This document shows, piece after piece, positions 15,173-50,628 of a stretch of DNA of 50,724 nt. This DNA comes from a virus. The notes beneath the pieces were generated by a model. That model was not told the DNA's origin, made no database searches, and was given only the letters and a program-made list of their open reading frames with translations. The DNA is taken from positions 1-50,724 of the IMG/VR virus record IMGVR_UViG_3300032282_002410. One strand, 5' to 3'. The position numbers and the translations under genes are program-made. The first letter of the stretch is position 1. Each line of letters opens with the position of its first letter.

Positions 15173-17899
15173 ATGGCTGTATTTGATGCTAAAGCTTTTG
15201 CTGCTGTTGCTGGTAACGGTGGTGGTCCGGTAGAGGCAGTAGGAACTGCATTCGGAGTTCCTAGTTGCATGATTAATTTAGCAAATGATTTATTAAATTT
15301 GCTACCTTCTGAAATACTCCAAGGAATTAAGGATGCGATGCTTGAGGGTGTTACCGCAGCAGATGATGTTGTTAAAAGTATAGTAGCAAATTTGTTTGGT
15401 TGGATGGGAATAATTGAATGGGATACAGAGGAGGGTGGATTTGTATTTAGATCAAAAGCATCCAAACTAGCTGCTGAAAAATCTGGAGTACTAGGTGTAA
15501 TAAATGGATTTTTAAAAGCTGCTGCATTTGCTTCAAGACTTTATGAAAACTATCAAACTGCTAGAAGCCAAATTGAATCAATGTACCGATGCATTAAGGA
15601 CTTTCAAACTTATTTAAAATATGCAAATGGTAATGCAGCAAATGAAGTATCAAATTTAACTGATGTACAGTATGATGAATATATAGATACACTTTATAAT
15701 AACGAAAAGCAACAGATGATGGTTGCATTAGACTTTATTGATCAATGTAACGCACAAATTGAACTCATTGATGGTATTTTAGACGACAGAAGAAACAATC
15801 CAAATTTAGAACCATCTTTCCTTTGTGAATTCTATAGTGAATTATCTGGAACTGGACTTAGGATTGAATGCGATCCTGCAACTCAAAAAGCCAAAGAAAT
15901 CTTTAGATTAGTTTATGGACCACCTAAATCTACTTATGGACAATTTATATTATCTAAAGATGGATTATACTTTGATTCTCAGACTAATGGAATTTATCCA
16001 GCATTAAATCATTTATTCTTTAAACAAGCTGCGTTTCCCAAAGGTGATAAATGGAAATTTAAACAAGATCCAAATATTGGCGGAAGGGGTGATTCATTCT
16101 CAACTAATGATTTAAAACTTTATGTAAATACTATACTAGATCCCTCTAAAATTGATGAATCAGAATCTCTAAAAGATTATTACAATTCGGATGCATTGTT
16201 ACAAGAACTTTTGGGTAATAAAAATAAAAGAATTTATGATTTATCTTCTCAGTTATCAGAGCTTATAGAGGGTAATGCTCCAACGTCAATTATAACTAAT
16301 TTTAAACAAGCAATAATATCAGAGAGTTTAATTATTCATGAAAAAATAAATAAACGAAAAAAGCAGATAGAATTAGCAGTTGTATTACCTAGAATTTATG
16401 GAACTAATATAGAATATCAAATTGGAAAAATACCAATTAATGATTTTTCTTATTTGGCTGGTTTGAATATTTCTTTAGATTTACAAAAACAAAAAGCATT
16501 AACATTCAGTCAAGTAGATATTTCAGGAGTTGTATCTCCTTTAGAGACAACTACACCAATATACTCTGTACCTAAAGTTAATACTAAAAATACTAATTTT
16601 GAACATTTAATTATTGCGGAAAATGGAGCAGGGGCAATAATTTACGATGGTAGTAGTGTTTCATCTACTGATGCAGTTGTATTGCAAGCTGAAAACGTAT
16701 TGACTACAGATTCTTTGTTTGCAATGTATAACTTTTTAGATACTGATATTGAAAGTCCATCTTCCACAGTATTTAGTTCAAGAAACTCTGCTTCCCAAAG
16801 CACTGAACTCTATGGTCAGTTAGTTGCTGAAAGCCAATCTGATGTATTTGAAAGAGGCTTAGGTGTTCCTTACTTCCAAGGAATAACTAAACATTCTAAT
16901 ACTTTACCAGGATCTTTATCTGGGCTTGGAAGTTTCTTTAGGTTACCTAATGAAAGACAGTTCAATGATTTATTATACAATAATACTGGAGCGAGTATAG
17001 ATTTCTGGGTTCATGTTAATAATCTTAGTTCAATAGCAAATGGGTATAACGTTGGTAACGTTTCAAGTCTTTACAGACTTGTGTTATCTAACGAAAATAC
17101 TGGATCTGTGGGGGATGTGAATACTAATACAGAATATATATCTAATGATTTTTCAAATAAACATGTCAGAGGATTTATGATGGGATTCACTCGGGATAGA
17201 AGATTAACTAAGGGTCTTCCTGCTAGTGAAATTGATTCAAATAATCCTGCTTCGGGCACTGTATTCTTCATAGCCCCTACACAATCAGTCACCGCATCAT
17301 CTGTTGCTCTTATAAATAGATCAGCTTATGATTCACAGGATTGTAATGTTGGAACAAAATACCACTCAATGACCTACCCTATAAGTTCAATAATTAATGG
17401 GGTTGCATTATCAGCGTGTCAAAATACGTTCTGCCATGTCGCTGTAACATTTGATCCCAAAGAAGATTCTATTAATTTCTTTGTTGATGGTAAGAAAGTT
17501 CAAACTTCAAGCATGTCTTATGTTTTTGGTATAGAGCCTAATCACATGCCTAATTTACCTACTGCTGCTGCTGCGAACAGTTTTGAGTATAACTCTTATT
17601 CTGTCGGATCATCTGCACCTAACTCATTGAAGTATGGACCTAAATTTGATGCTTTCAGAGGTCCAAATGGGGTAATTTTAAAGTATACCCCTTGGATTGT
17701 TGGTGGTGGGTATACGGATGGTTTATATAATAAAGGTAATTTCATGGGCGGTAAGTATGGTGGAATTATAAGTGGTCTAAGAGGGCATTTAGGTAGCATT
17801 AAATTCTATTCTAAACCATTAAATTCTTCGGAGATAATAAATAATTATAACACTCAAAAGAATTTCTTTAAGAATATTGATACTTCTAAACTATCCTGA
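15173..17899 (+). CDS. Large virion protein with C-terminal LamG/concanavalin-like domain
   Basis: A 908-residue protein. The first ~220 residues are helical (IKDAMLEGVTAADDVVKSIV; residues ~150-210 contain several Cys), and the middle is helical and Lys-rich. The last ~320 residues look like a laminin-G/concanavalin A-type jelly roll: IDFWVHVNN, CHVAVTFDPKEDSINFFVDG and a closing HLGSIKFYSKPLNSSEI are the usual landmarks. Such domains bind carbohydrates or other virion parts. It lies between the spike and gp25 genes, so it is probably baseplate-linked, perhaps contacting the host surface. The ATG is 6 bases after the spike stop. The function of the helical N-terminal part is unknown. Confidence 0.65.
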   Translation: MAVFDAKAFAAVAGNGGGPVEAVGTAFGVPSCMINLANDLLNLLPSEILQGIKDAMLEGVTAADDVVKSIVANLFGWMGIIEWDTEEGGFVFRSKASKLAAEKSGVLGVINGFLKAAAFASRLYENYQTARSQIESMYRCIKDFQTYLKYANGNAANEVSNLTDVQYDEYIDTLYNNEKQQMMVALDFIDQCNAQIELIDGILDDRRNNPNLEPSFLCEFYSELSGTGLRIECDPATQKAKEIFRLVYGPPKSTYGQFILSKDGLYFDSQTNGIYPALNHLFFKQAAFPKGDKWKFKQDPNIGGRGDSFSTNDLKLYVNTILDPSKIDESESLKDYYNSDALLQELLGNKNKRIYDLSSQLSELIEGNAPTSIITNFKQAIISESLIIHEKINKRKKQIELAVVLPRIYGTNIEYQIGKIPINDFSYLAGLNISLDLQKQKALTFSQVDISGVVSPLETTTPIYSVPKVNTKNTNFEHLIIAENGAGAIIYDGSSVSSTDAVVLQAENVLTTDSLFAMYNFLDTDIESPSSTVFSSRNSASQSTELYGQLVAESQSDVFERGLGVPYFQGITKHSNTLPGSLSGLGSFFRLPNERQFNDLLYNNTGASIDFWVHVNNLSSIANGYNVGNVSSLYRLVLSNENTGSVGDVNTNTEYISNDFSNKHVRGFMMGFTRDRRLTKGLPASEIDSNNPASGTVFFIAPTQSVTASSVALINRSAYDSQDCNVGTKYHSMTYPISSIINGVALSACQNTFCHVAVTFDPKEDSINFFVDGKKVQTSSMSYVFGIEPNHMPNLPTAAAANSFEYNSYSVGSSAPNSLKYGPKFDAFRGPNGVILKYTPWIVGGGYTDGLYNKGNFMGGKYGGIISGLRGHLGSIKFYSKPLNSSEIINNYNTQKNFFKNIDTSKLS

Positions 17900-23979: not shown

Positions 23980-25920
23980 ATGCTAATAGATCAAGCTGGA
24001 GAATTAATTGCTGATGTAATGACTGCTAATCGCAGCCTTTCTTCCATACCATCTGCCTCTGCTATATTAGATGCATCTAATTATACTTTTCATGCTATTA
24101 GTTATGGTAAAGATGCCGATGGTTTTAGGCATCATGCACATGAAATAATAAATACTGTTGACTCTATAATTCCCTCCAGAAAAACTTTAGTAATTTTTGG
24201 AGGGGCAGACTCCTCGGGTGTCAACAATCAAACTTGGGAATTATCTGGAACTTCTTGGAGTTCAGTGTCATTAACAACCAATCCAGGAATACGCATAAAA
24301 CATTCTACAGCATACGATTCAACTAGAGGTAGATTAGTATTATTTGGTGGGTATTCTGGAAACGTTCCTGTATTTTATGGAGATACTTGGGAGTTAAGCA
24401 GCAGTATAAGTTCAACAAGTTGGAATTTAATTTCGACAAGTGGACCATCGCCTAGAGAAGGCGCTGCGATGGCTTACGATTCTATTTCTAGTAGAACTTT
24501 ATTATTTGGCGGTAGATCAATACAGGGAAATTTAATTACATATAAAAATGATTTATGGTCATGGGATGGTACTAATTGGACAGAATTAGTTCATACTAAC
24601 AGACCTTCCGCAAGAGCTTTTCATAAAATAGTGTTTGATAGTTCTAGAAATCGTTTAGTTTTATTTGGTGGTGGAATTTCTGGGGGCAAGTTAGGGGACA
24701 CCTGGGAATGGGGTGGAAGTTCTTGGACCAGAGTTTCAACCACAGGCCCTTCAAGTAGGCAAGACTTTGGTATGGTTTATGATAGCTATAACTCAAAAAC
24801 TGTCTTGTATGGGGGAGAGGATTCTACTGGCGCATCAAAGGATGATGTGTGGTCTTGGAACGGAACATCCTGGTCCCAGGTAACTCCAACAGGGGCTGGT
24901 GGTGCTGGTAGAAGAAAATTGCACGGTATGGTCTTTTGCCCAGATAGAAATCAATCTTTAGTTTTTGGAGGATTTAATCCAAATTCTCCTAATACTTATT
25001 ATCGTGATACTTGGGCTTTTAATTATACTGTAAGTCCATTTTGGTCCCTAATATCAACTTCTGGACCTAGTGGGCGTATTCAACATAGTGTAGATTATTT
25101 TGATAATAAAAACCCCACACAAATAATGACTCCTAATGATGGGATTATAAAAGTTTTATCTTATGAGCCTATCTCAGTTTCTAGTTACCATACTTTAGCT
25201 ACAGCCTCAGGTTTATTTAGTAGTTATAAATTATTACCTAATTCAATAAAACCAACTGATACTAGATTGGAATCTAACTCAACAGTTACCTTATACTCTA
25301 CTAATGTACCCGATGTTGGGCATTGCTTAAATTCATATTTAAATTCAAATTTATCTTCTTATAGTCATTTAGTAGGTTGCTTCCCAGCAGCTAGTGGAAC
25401 CAAATACTGGATGATATCCTCAACATTTAATCCAAGCTCTAATATCATTATATCTGGAACGTTGTCCAGTGTTTATAATCAGCAAAAAATAATGGACATG
25501 TCTGGATTTTTAACTTTTGTTGAAGAATCTTTAGCTGTTCAAAATGAATTATTAGCTACTGAAAATTATTTATCTGGTGCTTTAAGAACAACCCCAAATG
25601 AGTTTCCTCAAAAAATAAGATTAGCTTGGGGCCTTTACCCAGGTGATGCAGGGTCATTACTATTGTTTGGGGGTATATACCACTTAGGTTTATGGTATTT
25701 AGACTTAAAAGAGATGTTAAAACAAGGTTATTATCCTCCTTATAACTTTAATGCACTAAATAATATAAGAAAATATAAGCTTTTTGCAAAGAAAACTTTT
25801 AATAAAGACTTATTATACCTAAATGACAATGGGTCTAATTCAGGATTTAAAAGTGTTTTTGAGCAAAATGCTCTTGGTGCTGACTGTATAAAATATATTT
25901 GGGATATAAAATTTTATTAA
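23980..25920 (+). CDS. Baseplate/fibre protein with six-repeat Kelch beta-propeller
   Basis: A 646-residue protein starting one base after the gp7-like stop. Residues ~67-375 contain six Kelch-type repeats. Each has a hydrophobic strand plus FGG or YGG (near residues 73, 122, 166, 229, 277 and 329), then DTWEW or DLWSWD, then SW, then P-S-x-R and a YD turn. Six blades would close one propeller. The remaining ~270 residues are Ser/Asn-rich, with the C-terminal end helical and basic. Kelch propellers bind proteins or glycans. In T4, gp8 and gp9 follow gp7 here, so this may be a wedge-attached adaptor or receptor-binding module. Function is inferred; the repeats are directly visible. Confidence 0.75.
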   Translation: MLIDQAGELIADVMTANRSLSSIPSASAILDASNYTFHAISYGKDADGFRHHAHEIINTVDSIIPSRKTLVIFGGADSSGVNNQTWELSGTSWSSVSLTTNPGIRIKHSTAYDSTRGRLVLFGGYSGNVPVFYGDTWELSSSISSTSWNLISTSGPSPREGAAMAYDSISSRTLLFGGRSIQGNLITYKNDLWSWDGTNWTELVHTNRPSARAFHKIVFDSSRNRLVLFGGGISGGKLGDTWEWGGSSWTRVSTTGPSSRQDFGMVYDSYNSKTVLYGGEDSTGASKDDVWSWNGTSWSQVTPTGAGGAGRRKLHGMVFCPDRNQSLVFGGFNPNSPNTYYRDTWAFNYTVSPFWSLISTSGPSGRIQHSVDYFDNKNPTQIMTPNDGIIKVLSYEPISVSSYHTLATASGLFSSYKLLPNSIKPTDTRLESNSTVTLYSTNVPDVGHCLNSYLNSNLSSYSHLVGCFPAASGTKYWMISSTFNPSSNIIISGTLSSVYNQQKIMDMSGFLTFVEESLAVQNELLATENYLSGALRTTPNEFPQKIRLAWGLYPGDAGSLLLFGGIYHLGLWYLDLKEMLKQGYYPPYNFNALNNIRKYKLFAKKTFNKDLLYLNDNGSNSGFKSVFEQNALGADCIKYIWDIKFY

Positions 25921-26536: not shown

Positions 26537-29500
26537 ATGTTTTTAAAAGACGACCTTTACACTGGAACTGGTTCTACTAAACTTTATCATTGCTGGACTG
26601 ATAAGGTAACTAAGTTTGATTCAAGTTCATTTTATAACTGGGAACAAGATAATATGCCAGTTTATGACCTTGATGAAAGAACCCATTACCTATGGGAGCA
26701 ATTAGGATTTCCAACTTCTAGCATAGCTGGAGTAATGTTGGTTGTCTCTTCTACTGCATCTGATAGCGACATAGTATGTAATAAAAATGTATTTAGATCA
26801 GTTAGTTCTGCAATAGCAGCATTACCACAAACTATAAATTTTCCAATAATTATTGAAGTTGCTAGTTTTGGTGATTTAGGAAATTTAATTTTAAATAATT
26901 TTAAATTCGGTCCAAAAGGTTCACTTGAAATTATTAATAGAAACTTCTCTAAAGGAGATGCTGAAGTATCTGGAAACTTAAACTTCAATAATGGTGGAAA
27001 TCAAAAATTATTTGTTAATTATGGTAATGCTGATTCATCAGTCTTTAATCCACACTCATACTTATCTTCAGTAGCGTTAACCAGCACTATTGAATCCGCA
27101 GGTGCCGGAGTAGGATCAACCTTTTCAGTTCGTGGAGGATTTTTACAAGCTTCAGCTTTGAGTTTAAGCTGCTCAATATTTAGCTCACTTACTGATACAA
27201 GATTAACATCTAACTTAAATGGATTTATTAGTTTATATAAAAATAATACAAATAAATTCTCAAGAGGTTCTTTAGTAGAGGATGATCAGAATAGTCGAAG
27301 CCCATTTAATTCAACTTCATCAACCATAGATTTTACTACTTATGATTTAAATCCTTTGGCATCAGATGGTGTTCATACTTATGATGCTAGCACGCTAGAT
27401 CTCTTAACTAATAATACTTTATATCTAAATTCTTTTGAAGCTAACTCGCCCGTTAGAGGTTTATTTTTCGGAAATAAATTATTTAAAGTTGTTATAAATA
27501 ATTGTGAAGGTCCTATTTATCTTAGAAATTTCTTCTTAGATGGTGGTGGAATTAATTTATCAAATAATAATTACGGTATTGAAATTAATAATTCCACAAA
27601 TATTTATTTAGAAAATACTGTAGTTACAAGATATAGAAAAGCTGGATTAATTTTTAACAATTCAAACGTAAATCTATTAAGAGGTTGTGTTGCTACTAGA
27701 ATTTATGATTTTGATTCTACAAATAGATTGACGGGACCTTGGTCAATTAAATCAAAATATATCTTAGCTAATGATGGAACTCAAGTATCAAATGAAGATT
27801 CTGGTGCAGGACTAATTTCAAATAATAGCATTATTACTGTAAGCTCTACTAGAGTAATAGAAGAGAGTTTACAACAAAGTAATGTTTTATCCAGGCACGG
27901 AAGTTATTTTAATTCGTTTTACCCATTTATAAATGCTAATTACATATTTGATTTTAGCAAAAACTCTAATGGAATTATATTAAATAATTCAGTATTACAA
28001 GGTGGAGATAAATATTATTCAGATATATCTAATCATTATAAATATCAAATAAATTTTGATATTTATAATAACGTTGGCTATGGAATTAAATCTATAAATT
28101 CAAAAATTTCTTTTGATGGTCGATTAAATATTTTTGAAAATTTAAATGGAATTCTTCTTGATTCGTCGGTATTTGAAATTGATAAAGCTACTTTAGTATA
28201 CAATCAAAAAATTGCGGTAGAATCAAATAATTCAAATATTATTTATAATAAAAATTTGGTTAATTATGGGTCGTATGAGAGACCTTATAGACCATTAATG
28301 TTTAGTGGTAACGGACAACATTTAGTTTTAAATAATTCAAATATGAATCCAGTATTTACTTCAGGCATGGATTCTATTTATGAAGAAATTATTTTTGATA
28401 GACCAATAGGGAGATTAAATTCAACTTTAAAACAAATTATACCTTCTGTTGAAATTAAAAATAATTCAAAGGCTGTCTTAGTTTCCCCATATATGAAAAG
28501 AGATTCTAATCATTCTACTATTGCTGCCGCTGCTGCTTGCAAAGGTTCTGAAATATCTGTTTTAAATAATTCAAAATTAAATATAAAGGGAACTAAGAAT
28601 TATGCTACTAGAGTTTTTGGTCCGCAGGGAAGAGTTTTCCAAAGTAATATAGCCGCAATATATGCAGGTAATAAATCAACTATTGAGATAAATGGTCCAA
28701 CAGTAATCGCGCAATATGGTATAGATTTATTAGCTGAAAGTAATTCTACTATTAGTATGAATCCTCACAAATCTATAGATAATAGATCTATAGATTTAAG
28801 TTCATTTAATTTATTAGATAGTGGAAATCATACCGCAGTTGAATTACATAGCACTAGAGCCTGTGTTGTTATTGATGATCATTCAACATTTGATGTAAAA
28901 GATTTAGGATCTTGTAAAACTTCCTGGACCAGATCAAATATTTATAGTAGTTTAATTCTTAGTGGATTAGATTATTCTGATCAGATTGAGATATTAGATC
29001 CCTATGTAAGTGCAGGTAGTTTACAATTCTATCCAAATCCAATAGGGTCTTATAATAATGCCCTGGGGACTTTCCCAGGTATTGATACCTTAGCTTCGTT
29101 AACATCTGAAAAATTTACAGCAAATTCAAATCCAGGATTACATTATTTAAAAAGTCCCTCAGTAACATCTGTTTTTGATTACAGTGCTGTTACTGCCGGT
29201 GGTTACTGTGTCAGAGCATTAAATAATAGTTTAGTAAATATTCATAATGTTAACTTCCCTTGCGGATGGTGGCAAACTTCTGCACCTTACTATGATAATA
29301 CTATAGGAATAAATTCAGGTGGTTATTGTTCTAAATTGTTTATTTGGAATATTGCTGATACCTCTCAGTTAAAAGCTTCTTATCTTTCTGTCAGTGGATT
29401 ATATCCAAGAACGGCAGGTTATTATGGCCCAAGCGGGCTTTGGGCTAGTGGAGGTAGCACTAGAGTGGCTAGTGGAATGCCTAGTTCTACCCCAGATACT

Positions 29501-30013
29501 AGTTCAGTATCCATTTTGGATTATTTTGGTGCAGCGGCAACCAATTTAAATCCATTTGGAAAAACTACAGCGCAGAATTATGGTCCATTTAGATTATACT
29601 TCTCTGTGGACCCAGTTGTATATGCACTGACAGAAGCGGCATCTAGTGTCAGTGGATTTGGTTATATCCCTCAAATATATTCTCAGGGATACCAACCAGT
29701 ATCTGCTTTAGTGTGTAATTCAGATGTAAGTAATATTTACTCTGTAGCACTTCAAAGAAATTCTAGTAATATTATTGCTCCATCTGGATACTATTATGGA
29801 TCTAGTATAATGAGTAACAATGGATTTATTAGAATTTCGTTAGATGAATCCGCAGCAGAGACATTTGCAAATGCTAAACATTGCTCTGTAGGTAAATCTG
29901 GTAATGCTAAATTGACATCAATTCATTATCCGTATACCTCAAAATTTGGAAGCTCTTATGGAGCTTTAGGAATTAAATCAGTTAACTTATTTGATATAGA
30001 GAGAGATAACTAA
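26537..30013 (+). CDS. Large baseplate/fibre protein, probable right-handed beta-helix
   Basis: An 1158-residue protein. The N-terminal ~130 residues (FYNWEQDNMPVYDLDERTHY, then LWEQLGFPTSSIAGVML and SSAIAALPQTINFPIIIEVA) resemble structural proteins I recall from cyanophage-like T4 relatives. The central ~700 residues show imperfect rungs ending in Asn-Asn-Ser turns (INNSTNIYLENT, FNNSNVNLLRG, LNNSVLQGG, KNNSKAVLVS, LNNSKLNIKG), typical of right-handed beta-helices in tailspikes. The last ~300 residues are Ser/Tyr/Gly-rich. A likely role is an outer baseplate or short-fibre component. No catalytic residues for a glycan lyase could be assigned. It overlaps the next gene by one base (TAATG). 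Confidence 0.65.
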   Translation: MFLKDDLYTGTGSTKLYHCWTDKVTKFDSSSFYNWEQDNMPVYDLDERTHYLWEQLGFPTSSIAGVMLVVSSTASDSDIVCNKNVFRSVSSAIAALPQTINFPIIIEVASFGDLGNLILNNFKFGPKGSLEIINRNFSKGDAEVSGNLNFNNGGNQKLFVNYGNADSSVFNPHSYLSSVALTSTIESAGAGVGSTFSVRGGFLQASALSLSCSIFSSLTDTRLTSNLNGFISLYKNNTNKFSRGSLVEDDQNSRSPFNSTSSTIDFTTYDLNPLASDGVHTYDASTLDLLTNNTLYLNSFEANSPVRGLFFGNKLFKVVINNCEGPIYLRNFFLDGGGINLSNNNYGIEINNSTNIYLENTVVTRYRKAGLIFNNSNVNLLRGCVATRIYDFDSTNRLTGPWSIKSKYILANDGTQVSNEDSGAGLISNNSIITVSSTRVIEESLQQSNVLSRHGSYFNSFYPFINANYIFDFSKNSNGIILNNSVLQGGDKYYSDISNHYKYQINFDIYNNVGYGIKSINSKISFDGRLNIFENLNGILLDSSVFEIDKATLVYNQKIAVESNNSNIIYNKNLVNYGSYERPYRPLMFSGNGQHLVLNNSNMNPVFTSGMDSIYEEIIFDRPIGRLNSTLKQIIPSVEIKNNSKAVLVSPYMKRDSNHSTIAAAAACKGSEISVLNNSKLNIKGTKNYATRVFGPQGRVFQSNIAAIYAGNKSTIEINGPTVIAQYGIDLLAESNSTISMNPHKSIDNRSIDLSSFNLLDSGNHTAVELHSTRACVVIDDHSTFDVKDLGSCKTSWTRSNIYSSLILSGLDYSDQIEILDPYVSAGSLQFYPNPIGSYNNALGTFPGIDTLASLTSEKFTANSNPGLHYLKSPSVTSVFDYSAVTAGGYCVRALNNSLVNIHNVNFPCGWWQTSAPYYDNTIGINSGGYCSKLFIWNIADTSQLKASYLSVSGLYPRTAGYYGPSGLWASGGSTRVASGMPSSTPDTSSVSILDYFGAAATNLNPFGKTTAQNYGPFRLYFSVDPVVYALTEAASSVSGFGYIPQIYSQGYQPVSALVCNSDVSNIYSVALQRNSSNIIAPSGYYYGSSIMSNNGFIRISLDESAAETFANAKHCSVGKSGNAKLTSIHYPYTSKFGSSYGALGIKSVNLFDIERDN

Positions 30014-40986: not shown

Positions 40987-41562
40987 ATGAGTAATTTCGG
41001 AAAATATAAAACTAATATTAGTTTACCTAATGCGGACGAATACGAAAGTCCGTTTAGATTATTTAATAAAATAAATGATCAAAATTTGTTTAACATTATT
41101 GATGAAGAACAAATTAAATTAGGTGGATCTCCATTAATGATTTATAAATATTTTCAAAACATAGAAATAGATGATGTCTATGGAGAAGAGAGAAGCAAAA
41201 CTATATCCGTTGAACCAATTAGAATTTATGGGCATTATGAGCCTAAAGCTATTGAAGAGAATCTAACTCAATTCGGAATCGAATTAACTAACGATCAACA
41301 ATTTACTTTTAATAAAAGTTACGCTGAGAGAAGATTAGGAAGACCTTTAATTCCTGGCGATATCATTAAACCAGAATTTCAAAATTTAAAATATGAGATT
41401 TACGAAGTCCAAGAAGATAGCTTTGAGTCTTATGGCGTGTATCACTTGGTATGCAGTGCTAAGTTACTCAGAGATTCGGAGGATATTCATAAACAGATAA
41501 CACCTAAGTCTGATCAAGTTAGTGTTAAAGAAATACTAAAGGACCCCTACGAATATGAATAG
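40987..41562 (+). CDS. 14: Neck protein, gp14-like
   Basis: A 191-residue protein (T4 gp14: 256). The segment IDDVYGEERSKTI, then VEPIRIYGHYEP (residues ~57-85) is the kind found in gp14 family neck proteins, and FESYGVYHLVCSAKLLRDSED follows near the C-terminus. I take ATG 40987 as start, one base after the gp13-like stop; an in-frame TTG at 40978 lies inside the upstream gene and is less likely. gp14 forms the neck ring with gp13, to which the tail docks. It overlaps the gp15-like gene by eight bases. Confidence 0.75.
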   Translation: MSNFGKYKTNISLPNADEYESPFRLFNKINDQNLFNIIDEEQIKLGGSPLMIYKYFQNIEIDDVYGEERSKTISVEPIRIYGHYEPKAIEENLTQFGIELTNDQQFTFNKSYAERRLGRPLIPGDIIKPEFQNLKYEIYEVQEDSFESYGVYHLVCSAKLLRDSEDIHKQITPKSDQVSVKEILKDPYEYE

Positions 41563-42241
41563 GCCCACCGTAAATAATAAAGTATTAAATGAAATACTTG
41601 AAAAAAGTAAAACATCAAGTGGGATGTATTCTCAGGAAATATTTAAAGATATACTTAGATTCCTTATTGGAACTTTTAGCGACGTTAGGTATGTCGATAG
41701 AAATAATAATGTAATTAAAGTTAAATGCTTTCATGCTAACCAAGAAAGAGCTATAGCCAAGTCTACACTAGGGGATAATATAACTTTACCTGTTATAACT
41801 ATTAGTGAAAACTCAACTGAGAGTAATCAAGAAAGAAATAAGTATAGCTCAGTTTTAATGCATGAGGTTTATTTTGATCAAAAGAAACAAAGGGCTATCA
41901 GGTTATTAAGTTTATCCCCTAGGGCTATAGATATTAATTATACTATTAATATTTGGGCCAAATATAAACAAGACTTAGATCAGATAAGAGAGTATATTTT
42001 ATTACTTTTTAATCCAGACCTTGAAATACCCAATAAGTCTGGGGATTCAAATAAAGCTTACTTTATATCTGAATCTGAAGTGGAACAAGCTGAAGCAGAA
42101 GATACCCAGGATCGAATATTAAAAAGATCAATCAATATAGCTGTGGAAACTTATATTCCAAATCCTAAGTTTTTATACACTTCAACCGGAAAAATAGAGA
42201 AATTTAACTACGAATACGAAATAGATACCTCAGGATTATAA
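41555..42241 (+). CDS. 15: Tail terminator/sheath stabiliser, gp15-like
   Basis: A 228-residue protein (T4 gp15: 272). The centre and C-terminal half carry the features of gp15-type tail completion proteins: SPRAIDINYTINIWAKYKQDLDQI followed by LLLFNPDLEIPN, then strands with SINIAVETYIPNP. It would form the hexamer that caps the finished tube and sheath and binds the neck. Context, after gp13/gp14-like genes and before the sheath gene, supports this. The start codon overlaps the previous stop. The C-terminal ~60 residues include an acidic stretch (SEVEQAEAEDTQDR). Confidence 0.72.
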   Translation: MNRPTVNNKVLNEILEKSKTSSGMYSQEIFKDILRFLIGTFSDVRYVDRNNNVIKVKCFHANQERAIAKSTLGDNITLPVITISENSTESNQERNKYSSVLMHEVYFDQKKQRAIRLLSLSPRAIDINYTINIWAKYKQDLDQIREYILLLFNPDLEIPNKSGDSNKAYFISESEVEQAEAEDTQDRILKRSINIAVETYIPNPKFLYTSTGKIEKFNYEYEIDTSGL

Positions 42242-42507: not shown

Positions 42508-45500
42508 ATGGGTACAATTCCTGCTAGTCCTGCTGTCGTTTTCCTGGAAAAAGATAATTCAGCCTACGCACCAAACATTGAGTCATCAGTGGCTGGTATC
42601 GTTGGATATGCCACTAAAGGTCCAACGAATGAGGCAACTCTCATAACTAGCCAAGAGCAGTTAATTCAAACCTTCGGTGAGCCAAGTGAGAGCCTGATGG
42701 GTCAGGGACTAGAGGGTGCTCTTGAAATCCTTGAGGCTACGAATCAATTAAGATATGTAAGAGCTATCCCAGATGATGCTAAAGAAGCATCAACCTCTGT
42801 TCAATTTGGTGTATGCCCTGCCGTTATATTTGCGGCTAGTGGATTTGGAGTAACTAAAGATCTTTACTTAAAAGTAACGGTTGTAAATAATGATGTCATA
42901 ACCGTTGTTGAAGATAAAGTTTATTCAATACCTGCCGGAACTGCTGAAACTCAAGCAGAAGCGCTAAAGAGTGTCATAGGTGAAGGGTTAACGGATAGCG
43001 ATTATCTTGGAGTTTCTTATGATAGCAACACTGAGGATGCCGGATATTTGGTAGCTGCTGTTGCAGGGAAAAATGCAAGCATGACCATTTATGCTGCATC
43101 ATCCAATAATTTTATTTCTTCAAATTTATATGAAAATTCATTTACTGTATTAGAGGCTGGTGGTGTTAATAATGTTCCAACTCCATCAGAATTTGATAAT
43201 CCAGTAACTGAAACGACCCCTGAGATGTGGATACTTTTTGGTGATAGTATAGCATATGGGGAAGGTGGGTATAGTGCTCTTCAAATATCAGGAAGTTTTT
43301 CCTCTTTAAGAGCTACTAGTGGTGTTTCAAGTGTTTTAATATTCCACCCAAGTTCTCAAAATTTTAATTACCCTAACCCATCATTAGTTCCATTACTAAT
43401 AAATGGTGCCACAACTGGAACTTACCCAGGTATTACTAATGGACCTCTTTTTGGATTTGATGGTGGACTTCCAGTAGGTCTTGAATTATCATTTGCTAAA
43501 AAAGCTTGGGAAAATGCAAGTTCTGTTCCAGGCGGCAGATTAGTTACTATTGTTAAATTTGGTATAGGTGGTGCAAAACTTGGATTACACTATGGTAATG
43601 ATGTGGCTACGGGATCAACATCAGCTACTGGATTTGGGTCATCAAGTTCACCTTATATTAGAAAGTATGCACAACAGTTTTCACAGTATGGTTGGGCTCC
43701 CGCTAGTGCTTGTGATGACTTTGGTGTTGATAATACAGTTGACGCTTACGGTAACCCTGCACCAAGTGGGCATTATGAATTACTCGCCCACTTAAAACAT
43801 TGGATTTATCTAGCGGCTGGATTAGTCTATCAACGTACGGGACAAGTTCCAATAGTATCAGGAATTATTACTTGTTTAGGTAGTAATAGTCCAGCTAATT
43901 ACATATGGACTTCTTTAAATGATTTTATTGTAGAAGACGGAAATCCAGGTTTGATAAATCCACAAACCGCCCAAGAAGTTGGGTATATGGGAAGACAGCG
44001 AACTGCTGTACAAAATTTAATTCAAAATCTTAGAGGATATTTAAGTACCGTAAAAATAAATCCAGGTGATCCAAGAGAAAGACCAATTGGCGGACCACGA
44101 ACTAAGTGGACCTGGGTGTGCCCTGCTAGTGGTACATCTACAGGTGCAAGTGCTTTCTTCTTTGGAACCTATAATAGTACAACAAATGTGTATTGGGGGG
44201 CTAGAAATTCTGTAAGTAGTGCAGTGCTTACTGAACCTTATACAAAAGTTGTTGATCCACTAACTTTACCTTATTTTAAATTAAGTGATCAAATTCACCC
44301 AGACATGAAAACTTTCTTACACTTAGGTGAGGCTGTTTGGAATTCATTTACAACTGGGGGAGATGATTATGTTGCCCCTGAGGGTAGTGCTGTATGCCAT
44401 GGAGCTAATATAGATGCTTCAACGTTCTCTTACTTAGCTAAATCTCAATATGCTGGAACTGGATATAATTTAAGCACTACTACAAATGGTAATATTTTAG
44501 GTAATAGTGTTACCATTAATTCAGATGCTGAATTTGATAAATCAACTTTATCAGTTAATAATAACGGTGTAAACTCTGAAAGCTTCAAAGTTTCGCTATT
44601 AGATAATTCAAATTATTTTGAAAAAGTTATTAATATTAGTAATGAAAATGTTACTTCTGATTATATTAAAGGTGAATTAACTAGCGATAGTAATGCTAAT
44701 ATTAGTATTGTTCCTTTAAATTATTTCCATGATCCTATTAATACCATGGGTATTCTTGGAGTTACTTTAACAAACTGGGATGATCAAGTATATCAATTAG
44801 CTGCTCCAAGATTCGTAAAACCAATAAAGAATACTTATGCTTTAGCTGGTGGAACTAATGGAACTATGGACTCAAATGATACTTTGATTGGTAATCCAAG
44901 TGCTAAGACTGGTATTTATGCTCTAGATGATGATACTTTGAACATTTCACTGGCTGCTGTTCCAGGTATCTACGATCAAAGAACTCAAAATGAGTTGATT
45001 ACACTTGCTGAAACCAGTCAAAATTTCTTGGCTGTCGTAGCTCCTGAGTATGGTTTGAATACTGTTGAAGAAGCAGTTGACTGGATGAATGGTAGAGGTT
45101 CAAGAACTGATGCAATCAATAGCTCCTGGGCTTCAGTCTACTGGCCACATGTCCAAGTATTCGATGTCTTCAGCAGCAAGGATAGATGGTATGATCCATC
45201 CATCTTCGCCATAAGACAAATGGCTTATACTGATAACGTATCGGAAACTTGGTTTGCTCCTGCTGGTTTCAGAAGAGGCAGACTAACCAAGCCTACGGCA
45301 ACGGAAGTAATTCTAAATCAAGGTGATCGTGATGTTCTCTACAGCAACAATATTAATCCTGTAGTAAACTTCAACCCAGAGGGTATTACGATCTTCGGTC
45401 AAAAGACTGCTCAAAGAGCACCAACTTCTTTGGATAGAATCAATGTTAGAAGATTGATGATATACCTCAGAAAGGTTCTCTTGCAGACTGGTCGAATTGA

Positions 45501-45750
45501 TTTGTTTGAACCTAATGATCAATTTACTTGGGAAATTGTTCAAGAGAAGGCCGAGGCACTTCTCGCGGATGTCCAAGCTAGAAGAGGTATTACCGACTTC
45601 AGAGTTGTATGCGATGAAACGGTGAACACTCCTCTAAGAGTTGATAGAAACGAACTATGGTGCAAGATTCTACTCAAGCCCACTAAGACCGCAGAGTGGA
45701 TTATCTTTGAGGTCAATCTCACCAATCAGTCAGCTAAATTTAATGGATAA
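42508..45750 (+). CDS. 18: Tail sheath protein gp18 with internal SGNH esterase-like domain
   Basis: A 1080-residue contractile sheath protein; T4 gp18 has 659. Residues 1-~230 are sheath (PAVVFLEKDNSAYAPNIESS, then VAGIVGYATKGPTNEATLIT), and residues ~630-1080 resume it with YLAKSQYAGTGYN, GIYDQRTQNELITLAE and the conserved C-terminal RINVRRLMIYLRKVLLQ and NRNELW-like end. Between them, residues ~235-617 form an SGNH hydrolase-like domain (see separate entry). Removing it leaves ~700 residues, close to a normal sheath. The gene begins with an AGAGGT ribosome binding site. Codons at both ends are more C/G-ending than in the middle. Copies stack around the tube and contract on attachment. Confidence 0.93.
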   Translation: MGTIPASPAVVFLEKDNSAYAPNIESSVAGIVGYATKGPTNEATLITSQEQLIQTFGEPSESLMGQGLEGALEILEATNQLRYVRAIPDDAKEASTSVQFGVCPAVIFAASGFGVTKDLYLKVTVVNNDVITVVEDKVYSIPAGTAETQAEALKSVIGEGLTDSDYLGVSYDSNTEDAGYLVAAVAGKNASMTIYAASSNNFISSNLYENSFTVLEAGGVNNVPTPSEFDNPVTETTPEMWILFGDSIAYGEGGYSALQISGSFSSLRATSGVSSVLIFHPSSQNFNYPNPSLVPLLINGATTGTYPGITNGPLFGFDGGLPVGLELSFAKKAWENASSVPGGRLVTIVKFGIGGAKLGLHYGNDVATGSTSATGFGSSSSPYIRKYAQQFSQYGWAPASACDDFGVDNTVDAYGNPAPSGHYELLAHLKHWIYLAAGLVYQRTGQVPIVSGIITCLGSNSPANYIWTSLNDFIVEDGNPGLINPQTAQEVGYMGRQRTAVQNLIQNLRGYLSTVKINPGDPRERPIGGPRTKWTWVCPASGTSTGASAFFFGTYNSTTNVYWGARNSVSSAVLTEPYTKVVDPLTLPYFKLSDQIHPDMKTFLHLGEAVWNSFTTGGDDYVAPEGSAVCHGANIDASTFSYLAKSQYAGTGYNLSTTTNGNILGNSVTINSDAEFDKSTLSVNNNGVNSESFKVSLLDNSNYFEKVINISNENVTSDYIKGELTSDSNANISIVPLNYFHDPINTMGILGVTLTNWDDQVYQLAAPRFVKPIKNTYALAGGTNGTMDSNDTLIGNPSAKTGIYALDDDTLNISLAAVPGIYDQRTQNELITLAETSQNFLAVVAPEYGLNTVEEAVDWMNGRGSRTDAINSSWASVYWPHVQVFDVFSSKDRWYDPSIFAIRQMAYTDNVSETWFAPAGFRRGRLTKPTATEVILNQGDRDVLYSNNINPVVNFNPEGITIFGQKTAQRAPTSLDRINVRRLMIYLRKVLLQTGRIDLFEPNDQFTWEIVQEKAEALLADVQARRGITDFRVVCDETVNTPLRVDRNELWCKILLKPTKTAEWIIFEVNLTNQSAKFNG
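43210..44358 (+). other. SGNH/sialate-O-acetylesterase-like domain inside the sheath protein
   Basis: Sheath residues ~235-617. Block I is ILFGDSIAYGEGG with nucleophile Ser247 (codon 43246-43248). Block II is IVKFGIGGAKLG (glycines 352-355), preceded by GLELSFAKKAWEN. Block III is CLGSNSPAN with Gly458 and Asn460. Block V is SDQIHPDM with Asp594 and His597, followed by LHLGEAVWNSF. Order and spacing match SGNH hydrolases, especially the carbohydrate-esterase (sialate O-acetylesterase) branch, and the triad appears intact. The domain is in frame, with sheath sequence on both sides. Activity and substrate (probably acetylated surface glycans) are inferred. Confidence 0.82.
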
Positions 45751-45757
45751 ATAAAAA

Positions 45758-46348
45758 ATGGCAACACCAATAGGATATTATAATACAAGTTATCGTCCCT
45801 TTGAGAAGGGTAAAAATTTACCAAGAATTTCTACTGGTATAGATTCAGTAAGAGCGTATCAATTTGAGGTTCACTTCTTTGGACTTCCCCCAAGTGTGGC
45901 CTCAAAGGAGCAGACGGATCTTACGTTAGCTGCAAAACAAGTTGGAGCTATAGGATACGGAGTTGATGATATTACGGTATCAAGAGTAAACGATAAAGTA
46001 TTCTATCCAGGAACTCCAAGCTTTGATGCCATCTCCATCACCTTTGACAATCTTTACATGATGAAAACTTGTCAGAGTTTGTGGCAATGGTTCAAGACTA
46101 TCTACGATCCTCTTAGCGGTAACATGACCTCATTGTCAGCCCCAGGCGGGAATGGCAACAGATCATTTAAGGCTGCTAAGATGAGAATCGTGGAGCTAGA
46201 TAATGCTAAGGTTCCTCATGCTGCAATAGAGCTTTATGGTGTTTACCCAAGAAATGTTAAATTCTCTGAAAAGAATTATGAAACCAGAGACTTCTCTACT
46301 ATAGAAGTGGATTTCCGCTTTGATTTCATTGATTACTTTAATTACTAA
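45758..46348 (+). CDS. 19: Tail tube protein, gp19-like
   Basis: A 196-residue tube protein (T4 gp19: 163). The family pattern is clear: RAYQFEVHFFGLP near residue 35, VGAIGYGVDDITVSRVNDKVFYPG (residues ~66-89), AISITFDNLYMM, and a C-terminal YGVYPRNVKFSEKNYE, then IEVDFRFDFIDY. It stacks as hexamers along the tape measure inside the sheath. It lies 7 bases after the sheath gene as in T4 (18-19). Codon use is similar to gp23 and the sheath ends. A terminator-like hairpin follows at 46375. Confidence 0.92.
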   Translation: MATPIGYYNTSYRPFEKGKNLPRISTGIDSVRAYQFEVHFFGLPPSVASKEQTDLTLAAKQVGAIGYGVDDITVSRVNDKVFYPGTPSFDAISITFDNLYMMKTCQSLWQWFKTIYDPLSGNMTSLSAPGGNGNRSFKAAKMRIVELDNAKVPHAAIELYGVYPRNVKFSEKNYETRDFSTIEVDFRFDFIDYFNY

Positions 46349-46378: not shown

Positions 46379-46404
46379 GCCTATCCTTTGGGTAGGCTAT
46401 TTTG
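46375..46404 (+). terminator. Rho-independent terminator after the tube gene
   Basis: AATAGCCTATCC and GGGTAGGCTATT pair over 12 positions (one T-G pair) around a three-base TTT loop, and a short T-run follows (TTTT, then GC). The tail is short, so termination may be partial. Confidence 0.75.
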
Positions 46405-46405
46405 C

Positions 46406-46411
46406 TATAAT
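46406..46411 (+). promoter_or_regulatory. Candidate -10 (TATAAT) immediately before the gene at 46418
   Basis: TATAAT ends 6 bases before ATG 46418, just after the terminator, and no ribosome binding site is present between them. This placement would give a leaderless or nearly leaderless mRNA. It resembles the helicase start at 678. Confidence 0.4.
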
Positions 46412-46417
46412 ACTTGT

Positions 46418-49081
46418 ATGAATTACTTTAACGAACTATTAGAGAGCTACAGCCGATTAAAAAAAAGAAGTCTTAGACTATTAGAAAAGGAATCCCCACA
46501 AGTACAGGTTACCGCTAACCCAGAATCTTTAGCACAGCAAGCAATTAGCCAAGCAAAAAATGCTACAAAAGAAAATCCATATATAGCTCAAACTCCAAGA
46601 GGCAATCAAATTGCTGTATTTACTACTCAAGATGGTCAAGTAGATTTTACTACATCAGTTCAAAATGGGCAGGCTGGTGGATTTATTAAATCTGTAAATA
46701 ATAATTATGAAGAATTTTTATCTTACTTCGGCTCTGATTCCGCAGCAGCACAACCAGGAGAATCCGAGGTTGAAGGTGAAAAACCTAAAACAATAAGAAC
46801 AAAAGCGGAGCCAGGAGATACAGCAGATAAAAATTTTCCAGGACTTGGATTAGGTAAAGTTATAAAAAAGTTTGCTTCACATCTTACCGATAATTTCCTA
46901 AAAAAATTACAAAAATATGCCCCAGACAAATCAAAATATGGTCCAGGTGCAACCGTAGAAAAATTTAGAACATATTTTCTGGGTGCAAAGCCACAGTCAA
47001 TAGAAAATGCAATAGATAATGCTTCAGTAATTAGATTAAATAAAGATAATAATCAAGTTGAATTTTCTCAAGGTGATGGCATGTCTAGGGAGGATAAAAA
47101 GACATTAAAAATTGCTGCAACTAAATTAGAAATAATGACTGGTATTGCTGCTAAGGTTGCAAGGGGTGAAAATCTAACTGGAGAAGATATTTCATTTTTA
47201 AAGACTAGTATTAAACTAGTAGGTTCTTGTAGAGCCTTCATGAGCAATAGCAAAAACTTTGGTGATTGCAGAGTAATGTTAGCTGTCAATGGAGAGGGTT
47301 CTGATATAGCTGGTGTGGTATTTAGTGATAACAAAGGTCAGATAAAGACTATGTTAAGAATGCTTCAGGAAGGCTCTGAGGGTTACGACCCAACAGATCC
47401 TGAAAGTAAATTTACACCAGAAAAAGTAAAGTTATATGAAGACCCAAATGGAAAAGCAATTCAAACTAATTATGCTCACATAATGGAAATAGCAAGCGTT
47501 CTTAGGCACCATTACTCTAATTGTAATAAAAGTAAAGGTGATGCTAAGTATCAAGCTTATTGTGCCGAAAGAGCTAAAAAATTGGTTGAGAAGTATGGAG
47601 AAAAAATGGAATCTATTACAGATATGGTAATAGCATTACAAAGACAAAGAGAGAAAGGTGAAACAGCAGGAATATATAATCCAGAGATAGAGCAGATGGT
47701 AGAGTTGTTCAATATAGGTGGAAACAAAGACGCTCTTCAAACTGTATTTAAACACATACGAAGTGTGACTGACCAAGCAAGAGCAAATAGAAATCCATTA
47801 ACTATCATCAACAGAGGTGCAGAAGTAGGATCTAGCAAGAGAACGGATAACGTAGAAGTTTATAAGACTGAGCAAGAGCTTAAGCAGGCTTTATTGAATA
47901 GCGGCATATCCGAGAAAGAATATCAGGACATGATAGACGATGGAACTATCAAAATTAATATTCCCCCCAAAGATGCTTTCGGTGAAAACCAAGAAGAATA
48001 TGATATAGCTAAAAAGCACGGTATAGTGTCAGATTCGCAACCAGTGTGTGTATTTAATATTAGTGAAAAATATTATCGCAAGCTAGACGATGGTGTAAAA
48101 ATAGGGTCTAGAAGATCATCCACTATAAAAAATACCTTGAAGGGAATTAATGAAAAGCCTAATGACCCTAGATCAAAAGCAGATCTTGAATTAGCTAGAA
48201 ACTCTTTGAAAAGGAATTTAAATTTAAGCAATAGAGATCTGGAAGATGCTGCTGATTACGATGACCAGTTGGATGATGAGATAGATGGAACTTTGAATAA
48301 GTTCTTTGTCGGAAAAGAAACCATCGTTGATGGTAAAAAAACTAAAGTTTGGGATGGACCAAAGACTGCTAATGCAGTTCTGGAACACATTAGGAAGAAC
48401 TGCACGCAGGATCAGTTAAACAAACATCCACATTACTCACAAATAGTTCAAGCAGCTAATGCTTTGGCAAGTGGTAGTGAGAAGAATCCAGAAAGGTTAC
48501 TTAGTTTAGTATCTACTTTTGCTAAAATGAAGAAATGCCAAAGTGATTCTGAAAGTTCTGATCCTAATGTAGCCATGAGAGCTAGAAAATATTTAGCTTC
48601 TAAAATGTTTTTAACTGGTGGAGCTTCAGACGGAGCGTATGTTAATGCTAATGCAACTACAACTAATGAGAGAATTACTTTTAGACAAAATAAGATATTT
48701 AGTGACGCTGTTCAATCTGCTGTAAGGGGCGATGGTGAATGGGAATTTAGATTTGATGAAAACGGTAACGTTGGAGTTTATAACAAAAATGATAGCTTAA
48801 TGAATATCACTATGGGATTCCAAGCAGATCAATCAGCAGAAGGATTTAGTACAACACATTCAGTATATTCAAGTAAAGAAATAATGTTAAGATATGCTGA
48901 TAAGGAACTTGCAACTGCATCACAGCCACAATCACAACCTGAAACTAAAAAGAAAAGGGTAGTGAAGAAGAAATCAGCAAAGCCTTCTGGGCCAAAGAAG
49001 CCACTTAGAAATGTTTATAGAAGCAAAGCTAAAAAGGAAGAAGCTGAGAAAAGAAGAGAAGCTAAATCCAAAGATGCCTAG
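46418..49081 (+). CDS. Large hydrophilic protein, possible internal head/ejection protein
   Basis: An 887-residue protein if started at ATG 46418; an in-frame TTG at 46388 lies inside the terminator and is rejected. It is Lys/Asp/Asn-rich, mostly helical, with no recognised domain. The N-terminus (FNELLESYSRLKKRSLRLLE) resembles a capsid-targeting peptide ending in an LLE site (cut after residue 23), as cleaved by gp21-type proteases. Residues ~70-135 are flexible. The C-terminal ~65 residues form a Lys/Arg tail (KKKRVVKKKSAKPSGPKKP). DNA association and packaging into the head are plausible inferences. No ADP-ribosyltransferase (Alt-like) motif was found. It overlaps the convergent nuclease gene by 20 bases. 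Confidence 0.6.
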   Translation: MNYFNELLESYSRLKKRSLRLLEKESPQVQVTANPESLAQQAISQAKNATKENPYIAQTPRGNQIAVFTTQDGQVDFTTSVQNGQAGGFIKSVNNNYEEFLSYFGSDSAAAQPGESEVEGEKPKTIRTKAEPGDTADKNFPGLGLGKVIKKFASHLTDNFLKKLQKYAPDKSKYGPGATVEKFRTYFLGAKPQSIENAIDNASVIRLNKDNNQVEFSQGDGMSREDKKTLKIAATKLEIMTGIAAKVARGENLTGEDISFLKTSIKLVGSCRAFMSNSKNFGDCRVMLAVNGEGSDIAGVVFSDNKGQIKTMLRMLQEGSEGYDPTDPESKFTPEKVKLYEDPNGKAIQTNYAHIMEIASVLRHHYSNCNKSKGDAKYQAYCAERAKKLVEKYGEKMESITDMVIALQRQREKGETAGIYNPEIEQMVELFNIGGNKDALQTVFKHIRSVTDQARANRNPLTIINRGAEVGSSKRTDNVEVYKTEQELKQALLNSGISEKEYQDMIDDGTIKINIPPKDAFGENQEEYDIAKKHGIVSDSQPVCVFNISEKYYRKLDDGVKIGSRRSSTIKNTLKGINEKPNDPRSKADLELARNSLKRNLNLSNRDLEDAADYDDQLDDEIDGTLNKFFVGKETIVDGKKTKVWDGPKTANAVLEHIRKNCTQDQLNKHPHYSQIVQAANALASGSEKNPERLLSLVSTFAKMKKCQSDSESSDPNVAMRARKYLASKMFLTGGASDGAYVNANATTTNERITFRQNKIFSDAVQSAVRGDGEWEFRFDENGNVGVYNKNDSLMNITMGFQADQSAEGFSTTHSVYSSKEIMLRYADKELATASQPQSQPETKKKRVVKKKSAKPSGPKKPLRNVYRSKAKKEEAEKRREAKSKDA

Positions 49082-49955: not shown

Positions 49956-50293
49956 ATTATATTCCAAAGAATATTAACTCTTGGGAACGCCTTCAACAAC
50001 TTATTCGCGCTGTTGATGAGTTACTCCCAAAGTCTGGACCTAAGAGTAGAATTAAAGTTTTGATCTATAGCCCTTGGAATGAGCATTCAACCAAATTTAA
50101 GGGTTATGATTCTCGTGTGAACTTATTTGAAGTTCCCGAGGTTATGCAAATTCTTAATGAGACTTTTGAGCAGGACTTAAAATTAAATACTGTTCCAACT
50201 TTGATCAACTTCCAAATGGTAGATGATCAGATTAAGATGGTGGTTGTAGATAATGCTACCGCCATTCAGCATGAGCTAGCGTCTGGTGGTTGA
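49952..50293 (+). CDS. Small hypothetical protein
   Basis: A 113-residue mixed alpha/beta protein coupled to the preceding gene by an ATGA overlap. The segments WERLQQLIRAVDELLPKSG, IKVLIYSPWNEHSTKF and PTLINFQMVDDQIKMVVVDN alternate helix and strand, like a small globular regulator. No known motif is visible. It ends 28 bases inside the convergent sigma factor gene. I have a vague memory of similar small proteins in T4-like aquatic phages but cannot attach a function. Confidence 0.55.
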   Translation: MNYIPKNINSWERLQQLIRAVDELLPKSGPKSRIKVLIYSPWNEHSTKFKGYDSRVNLFEVPEVMQILNETFEQDLKLNTVPTLINFQMVDDQIKMVVVDNATAIQHELASGG

Positions 50294-50628
50294 GCAGGAA
50301 ATCCAAACTTAAACTCAAAATAAGCTTCCAACTTGAGTTTATGCCTTTTAACTTTAGTAGCCACTAGCTTTAAATTATTTATAATTACTGTCGTAAAATA
50401 ATTAAAAGCCGAGCCGCTTTCAGGTCTAAAATTACGCAGTGTTCTTAGGACAAGGAGGAAGCATTCTTGTTTTGCGTCTTCCTTGTCCACTTTAAAATGG
50501 AAAGCGTCTATGATGTTGCCGATGAGGGTGTCGAAACAAGCCATCAACTCATCCTGAAATTCATAATTACCAGAACAGTGTAGTTTAATTAATTGTTCAA
50601 AACGTTTGTTATTAAGATACTCCGACAC
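50266..50628 (-). CDS. 55: Late-promoter sigma factor, gp55-like (short)
   Basis: A 120-residue protein starting with GTG at 50628 (an in-frame stop lies 6 bases upstream, so no longer form exists). Residues ~28-90 fit sigma region 2 as in gp55: DTLIGNIIDAFHF, then EDAKQECFLLVLRTLRNFRPE and SGSAFNYFTTVIINNLK. gp55 directs host RNA polymerase to TATAAATA late promoters, such as those at 35460 and 46371. T4 gp55 has 185 residues; this one is unusually short. The C-terminus is aromatic and acidic at first (LEAYFEFKFGF), which could be a clamp-binding tail, but then ends PDASSC. No ribosome binding site is seen before the GTG. Confidence 0.75.
   Translation of the reverse strand: MSEYLNNKRFEQLIKLHCSGNYEFQDELMACFDTLIGNIIDAFHFKVDKEDAKQECFLLVLRTLRNFRPESGSAFNYFTTVIINNLKLVATKVKRHKLKLEAYFEFKFGFPAQPPDASSC

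Follow-up and report, generated by a model that had tools for sequence, protein, structure and literature searches.

The analyzed window is the whole 50,724-nucleotide stretch, a fragment of an uncultivated virus whose genome is incomplete; at 50.7 kb, it corresponds to about one-third of a typical T4-like genome. A search of genome contigs for the phage's host gave no match. The fragment carries T4-like structural genes encoding a head maturation protease, major head protein, head-tail adaptor, sheath stabilizer, sheath, tail tube, and baseplate wedges. The sheath gene sits between a gp15-type gene upstream and a gp19-type gene downstream, as for gp18-type sheaths, and the features of this neighborhood are the following:

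41555 to 42241, plus strand: tail sheath stabilizer (gp15 type), upstream of the sheath gene (PHROG_227, E = 8.6e-6)
42508 to 45750, plus strand: tail sheath protein (T4 gp18 type), 1,080 aa, with an internal insert (open frame, PHROG_23, Pfam, AlphaFold, Foldseek)
42508 to 43116, plus strand: N-terminal sheath part, residues 1–203 (37–62% identity to relatives; pLDDT 60–95 from residue 27)
43117 to 44379, plus strand: inserted domain, residues ~204–624, ~420 residues, with an SGNH-like motif order (absent from relatives; pLDDT mostly 20–30; present in a second assembly, L006)
44380 to 45750, plus strand: C-terminal sheath part, residues 625–1080 (41–69% identity to relatives across most of this part)
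45758 to 46348, plus strand: tail tube protein (gp19 type), the next gene after the sheath (PHROG_4542 and PHROG_45)

The open reading frame at 42508–45750 is a complete contractile tail sheath protein of the gp18 type. It matched PHROG_23 (E = 1.8e-71) and Pfam Phage_sheath_1C (E = 7e-14), and its C-terminal part contains the subtilisin-like and C-terminal sheath domains (Pfam). We modeled the whole 1,080-aa protein with AlphaFold using 27 aligned sheaths. Across most of the sheath part (insert excluded), pLDDT was about 75–95, and the best Foldseek matches of the modeled sheath were the T4 and Klebsiella phage KP1 variant sheath structures (E 1.6e-17). The initial annotation had described an intact 1,080-residue sheath with sheath sequence on both sides of an insert, and the open frame and the profile matches to both parts bear this out.

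Several other genes of the window are noted here in their own right. A 646-aa protein of Kelch repeats (β-propeller), encoded at 23980–25920 among the tail genes (Pfam PF24681, E = 2.4e-35), is unusual for a phage tail cluster. A 908-aa ORF (15173–17899) that directly precedes the baseplate wedge genes carries at its C terminus a region resembling concanavalin-A/laminin-G (Pfam PF13385, E = 3.3e-6) and is a possible second glycan-binding virion protein. An 897-aa orphan ORF with a TTG start (46388–49081) lies between the tail tube gene and a RusA-like resolvase gene; Pfam and PHROG profiles gave no match to it. The sigma-70 region 2-like protein on the minus strand at 50266–50628 (Pfam, E = 4.5e-5) is possibly a gp55-like late sigma factor.

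The limits of the insert were set by comparison with about 40 related sheaths from IMG/VR, whose C-terminal parts reach about 80% identity. The roughly 30 relatives with full-length frames are 658–794 aa long; none contains the insert, and they align straight from residue ~203 to ~625. In the whole-protein model, residues 27–203 and most of 626–1072 are confident, with pLDDT below 30 almost everywhere in 204–624. Because the relatives' alignment and the drop in model confidence both place the limits there, we take the insert to span residues ~204–624. An insertion had originally been proposed at ~235–617, along with a search of sheath homologues for the same insertion: the insertion itself stands, its extent is larger, and the search found it in none of the ~30 complete relatives. 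Removing the insert leaves 659 aa, which is also the length of T4 gp18; the initial estimate of ~700 residues had pointed to the same closeness. By alignment, the insertion site corresponds to about residues 218–238 of gp18, an approximate equivalence because the alignment is weak there. Domain II of T4 gp18 comprises residues 88–97 and 189–345 and forms the outer part of the subunit (PMC3004832), and the insertion site appears to fall roughly in its equivalent.

Searches of phage, plasmid, and genome collections returned no homologue of the insert, and IMG/VR gave L006 only. A match in Phage NCTB, a phage of similar kind, was to a short protein that is QueC-like by eye (E = 5), and we treated it as chance. 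L006 (IMGVR_UViG_3300034198_002545) comes from a different metagenome and has a different left contig end, and it carries the same insert in the same frame with both junctions. Because both junctions recur in a near-identical phage that was assembled independently, a chimeric assembly at either one, which had been a concern at the outset, is very unlikely, and we rejected it. GC at third codon positions is 0.17 in the insert and 0.16 in the fiber-region gene at 26537–30013, against 0.27 in the sheath sequence on either side; the low value in the insert, like that of the fiber-region gene, would fit import of a fiber-like adsorption module.

Within the insert, the translation contains the SGNH motifs in order:

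43240 to 43248, plus strand: SGNH block I, GDS 245–247, with Ser247 as predicted nucleophile (translation; low-confidence strand predicted immediately ahead of it)
43561 to 43572, plus strand: SGNH block II, GIGG 352–355 (translation)
43879 to 43887, plus strand: SGNH block III, GSN 458–460 (translation)
44287 to 44298, plus strand: SGNH block V, D594-Q-I-H597 (translation; predicted helix after it, insert 374–392, low confidence)

All of these residues are where they had been reported, and block I reads MWILFGDSIAYG in the translation, with Ser247 as the predicted nucleophile. Among composition-preserving shuffles of the insert, 0.05% contained GDS-GxGG-GxN-DxxH in order with free spacing. 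A stricter pattern with hydrophobic strand context, written after the sequence was seen, occurred in 0 of 100,000. Low-confidence secondary structure prediction gave strand-GDS, strand-GIGG, two helices, GSN, a long helix, a hairpin, and a DxxH-helix. Comparison with Pfam, NCBIfam, PHROG, and PDB sequences yielded no match at E up to 10. Profile comparison with Escherichia coli NanS (hhalign) was likewise negative, the insert not outscoring its own shuffles. Structure prediction of all 1,080 residues, which the initial annotation had suggested, recovered the sheath fold (Foldseek, T4) and gave no confident fold for the insert, with pLDDT mostly 20–30 inside the sheath and 29 for the insert alone. 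Of the apparently complete SGNH esterase domain originally described, the motif order holds; a sequence or profile match to SGNH families was not obtained (none to E = 10). The insert is genuine, as are its motifs. On this motif basis, it is probably an SGNH domain, and an SGNH fold and activity are predicted as likely.

We compared 43,871 bases of the window with the near-identical phage's contigs L006 (38167–50724) and L057/L074 (6854–38253). There were 22 differences over 43.9 kb, all in three short patches. The stretch 16537–38253, including the large fiber-region genes, is 100% identical between the two assemblies. This fragment and L006 both stop at the identical base, 50724. The patches are as follows:

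15764 to 15804: first divergent patch, 5 differences in 41 bp vs. L074, inside the 908-aa ORF 15173–17899, mostly third-position, in a 31-kb contig with no other difference
44137 to 44189, plus strand: hypervariable patch in the insert, codons 544–561, 7 of the 22 differences; candidate variable repeat of a diversity-generating retroelement (DGR)
50242 to 50308: third divergent patch, 10 differences in 67 bp vs. L006, where two convergent genes overlap at their ends, mostly silent transitions

Every one of the seven differences in the 53-bp insert patch changes an amino acid, altering six residues (S/A, T/P, S/N, A/D, S/N, and V/R), and five are transversions. None falls at codon position 3, in contrast to 11 of the 15 differences in the other two patches (Fisher p = 0.004), which are mostly silent. 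Those two look like ordinary divergence through recombination or assembly, the one at 50242–50308 like a small recombination tract or an assembly bubble. Because they occur in the same comparison, clustering alone is no proof of targeted mutation. The insert patch lies between the last predicted core strand (KWTWVCPAS) and DxxH, 33 residues before D594, and AlphaFold modeled it as a β-hairpin with very low confidence. As a difference between these two genomes, the patch is real, and it suggests targeted diversification, the strength of this inference being limited by the two alleles from which the patch is known.

The pattern of changes at 44137–44189 resembles a DGR variable repeat; it is the signature expected from rewriting by a template rich in AAY codons, that is, from a DGR. 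The true variable repeat probably extends beyond these coordinates, and with two alleles, any variable site is compatible with a template adenine. A search for a reverse transcriptase (Pfam RVT_1) was negative for the 50.7-kb window and for 53 partial records of relatives, all of them fragments. No template repeat was present in the window, and none was found in IMG/VR as an exact match at nonadenine positions; degenerate-pattern matches in IMG/VR were poly-A tracts and L006 itself and were rejected. Because the window covers about a third of a T4-like genome, the lack of both elements is not conclusive. In phage DGRs, the variable repeat is followed directly by a GC-rich hairpin of 7–10 bp that has a GRNA loop (PMC3240598). 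After the insert patch, we found only a weak stem with a larger loop (44212–44231; z-score −0.5). On balance, the case for a DGR behind the insert patch is evenly poised.

We propose that a large T4-type myovirus gained a ~420-residue SGNH (GDSL/sialate-O-acetylesterase-like) domain between two strands of the outer sheath subunit. The sheath is a polymer, and therefore, one copy of the insert would be present per sheath subunit on each virion. The T4 sheath has 138 subunits. In T4 and other sheaths, domains added to the conserved core sit away from the tube (PMC9230969), and by analogy, the insert would lie on the sheath surface. Host glycans at the cell surface are its most likely contact there, and it may remove O-acetyl groups from them by way of Ser247, Asp594, and His597 (predicted), with the block II glycine (GIGG 352–355) and Asn460 as predicted oxyanion hole. 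The segment from the KWTWVCPAS strand to the catalytic DxxH, a loop or hairpin, would be hypervariable and the motifs fixed, so that binding specificity could be diversified with the motifs unchanged. The likeliest engine would be a DGR, acting by adenine-directed retrohoming from a template repeat and encoded by the part of the genome outside the sequenced fragment. The insert with its limits, its lack in relatives, the order of the motifs, and where and how the patch varies are observed; in this proposal, we infer the SGNH fold, the surface exposure, the glycan binding or catalysis, and the DGR as engine. The best explanation of the locus is an SGNH-like domain that contacts glycans multivalently and has a hypervariable loop, perhaps driven by a DGR, and we give this explanation an even chance of being right. 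Its most specific form, in which every sheath subunit contains an SGNH-type domain and a DGR hypermutates a loop adjoining the active site, is offered tentatively, as a minority prospect.

Part of the remaining probability belongs to an SGNH-type esterase or lectin domain that varies without targeted mutagenesis, the patch being a small recombination tract or a strain difference under diversifying selection. The patches at 15764–15804 and 50242–50308 show that patchy recombination or assembly bubbles occur in this pair, and neither a reverse transcriptase nor a template repeat was found. However, those patches are mostly silent and third-position, and the insert patch has neither kind of change; we consider nontargeted variation somewhat unlikely. 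Were the motifs themselves due to chance, the insert could be an orphan, non-SGNH adhesin domain whose variable hairpin is the binding site, for example in a divergent C-type-lectin-like fold. This would suit the missing homologues in every collection, the missing fold prediction, the C-type lectin folds of published DGR variable regions (PMC8144416), and the hairpin predicted with very low confidence at the patch. It is at odds with the shuffles, by which four ordered motifs with strand or helix context are improbable by chance, and 420 residues are long for a lectin domain; we regard such an adhesin as unlikely.

The contig is metagenomic and the insert is missing from relatives, as might be seen if a separate esterase gene had been fused into the sheath gene by the assembly or a strain mixture had been collapsed. 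Against such an artefact stand the second, independent assembly with the same frame and junctions and another left contig end, the intact frame, and a residual sheath of exactly T4 length, and its probability is very small.

For the preferred reading, a glycan-contact SGNH-like domain with a hypervariable loop, the patch brings a diversified receptor-contact surface to the fore in place of a static array of esterases. Extra domains of sheaths have so far been guessed to aid adhesion or stability, and the literature that we found links none of them with an enzyme or with targeted variation. If the reading is true, the sheath joins the fibers and the baseplate as a host-recognition surface, the tail bears a diversified, highly multivalent glycan-engaging coat, and massive sequence variation is accommodated by an enzyme-derived fold in place of the C-type lectin fold. 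Our literature search found no description of an SGNH-type domain in a tail sheath; many subscription papers lay outside the search, and novelty is not proven. No paper was found that combines "diversity-generating retroelement" with "SGNH." The few papers pairing tail sheath with SGNH or acetylesterase appear to concern fibers, spikes, or gene lists.

The protein is like T4 gp18 and the multidomain (type 3) sheaths in its N- and C-terminal core, its adjoining tube gene, the placement of extra domains in the outer part, and its 659 aa without the insert. In a survey that modeled 112 sheath proteins, extra domains were mostly Ig-like, and its text mentions no esterase, enzyme, or lectin (PMC9230969). 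Unlike the mostly Ig-like extras of type 3 sheaths, the extra domain here is 420 aa long and combines SGNH motifs with a hypervariable patch. The block order and the approximate spacing are shared with E. coli NanS, a member of the SASA family (Ser19 to His ~301 in NanS; Ser247 to His597 here), and the NanS layout of strand-GQS, strand-GG, strand-QGE, helix, strand, and His is matched by eye in the low-confidence prediction for the insert. The insert differs from NanS and the SGNH hydrolases in having no detectable sequence or profile similarity to them and in residing in a sheath, not in a free enzyme or a tail fiber or spike.

With DGR-diversified receptor-binding proteins such as BPP-1 Mtd and the tentaclins, it shares a virion tail protein as the site of variation and, between near-identical genomes, a clustered, amino-acid-changing, transversion-rich patch. 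In the largest survey of DGRs, those variable regions that could be annotated fell systematically within C-type lectin folds and, for several viral clades, mostly within tail structural proteins, with sheath and esterase not mentioned (PMC8144416). In contrast to BPP-1 Mtd and the tentaclins, here the target is the sheath, the patch is internal, the fold is not a recognized C-type lectin, the downstream DNA hairpin is not significant, and a reverse transcriptase and template repeat were not found. A sheath with an accessory domain is an already known kind of protein; the SGNH motifs together with the hypervariable patch are what sets this one apart.
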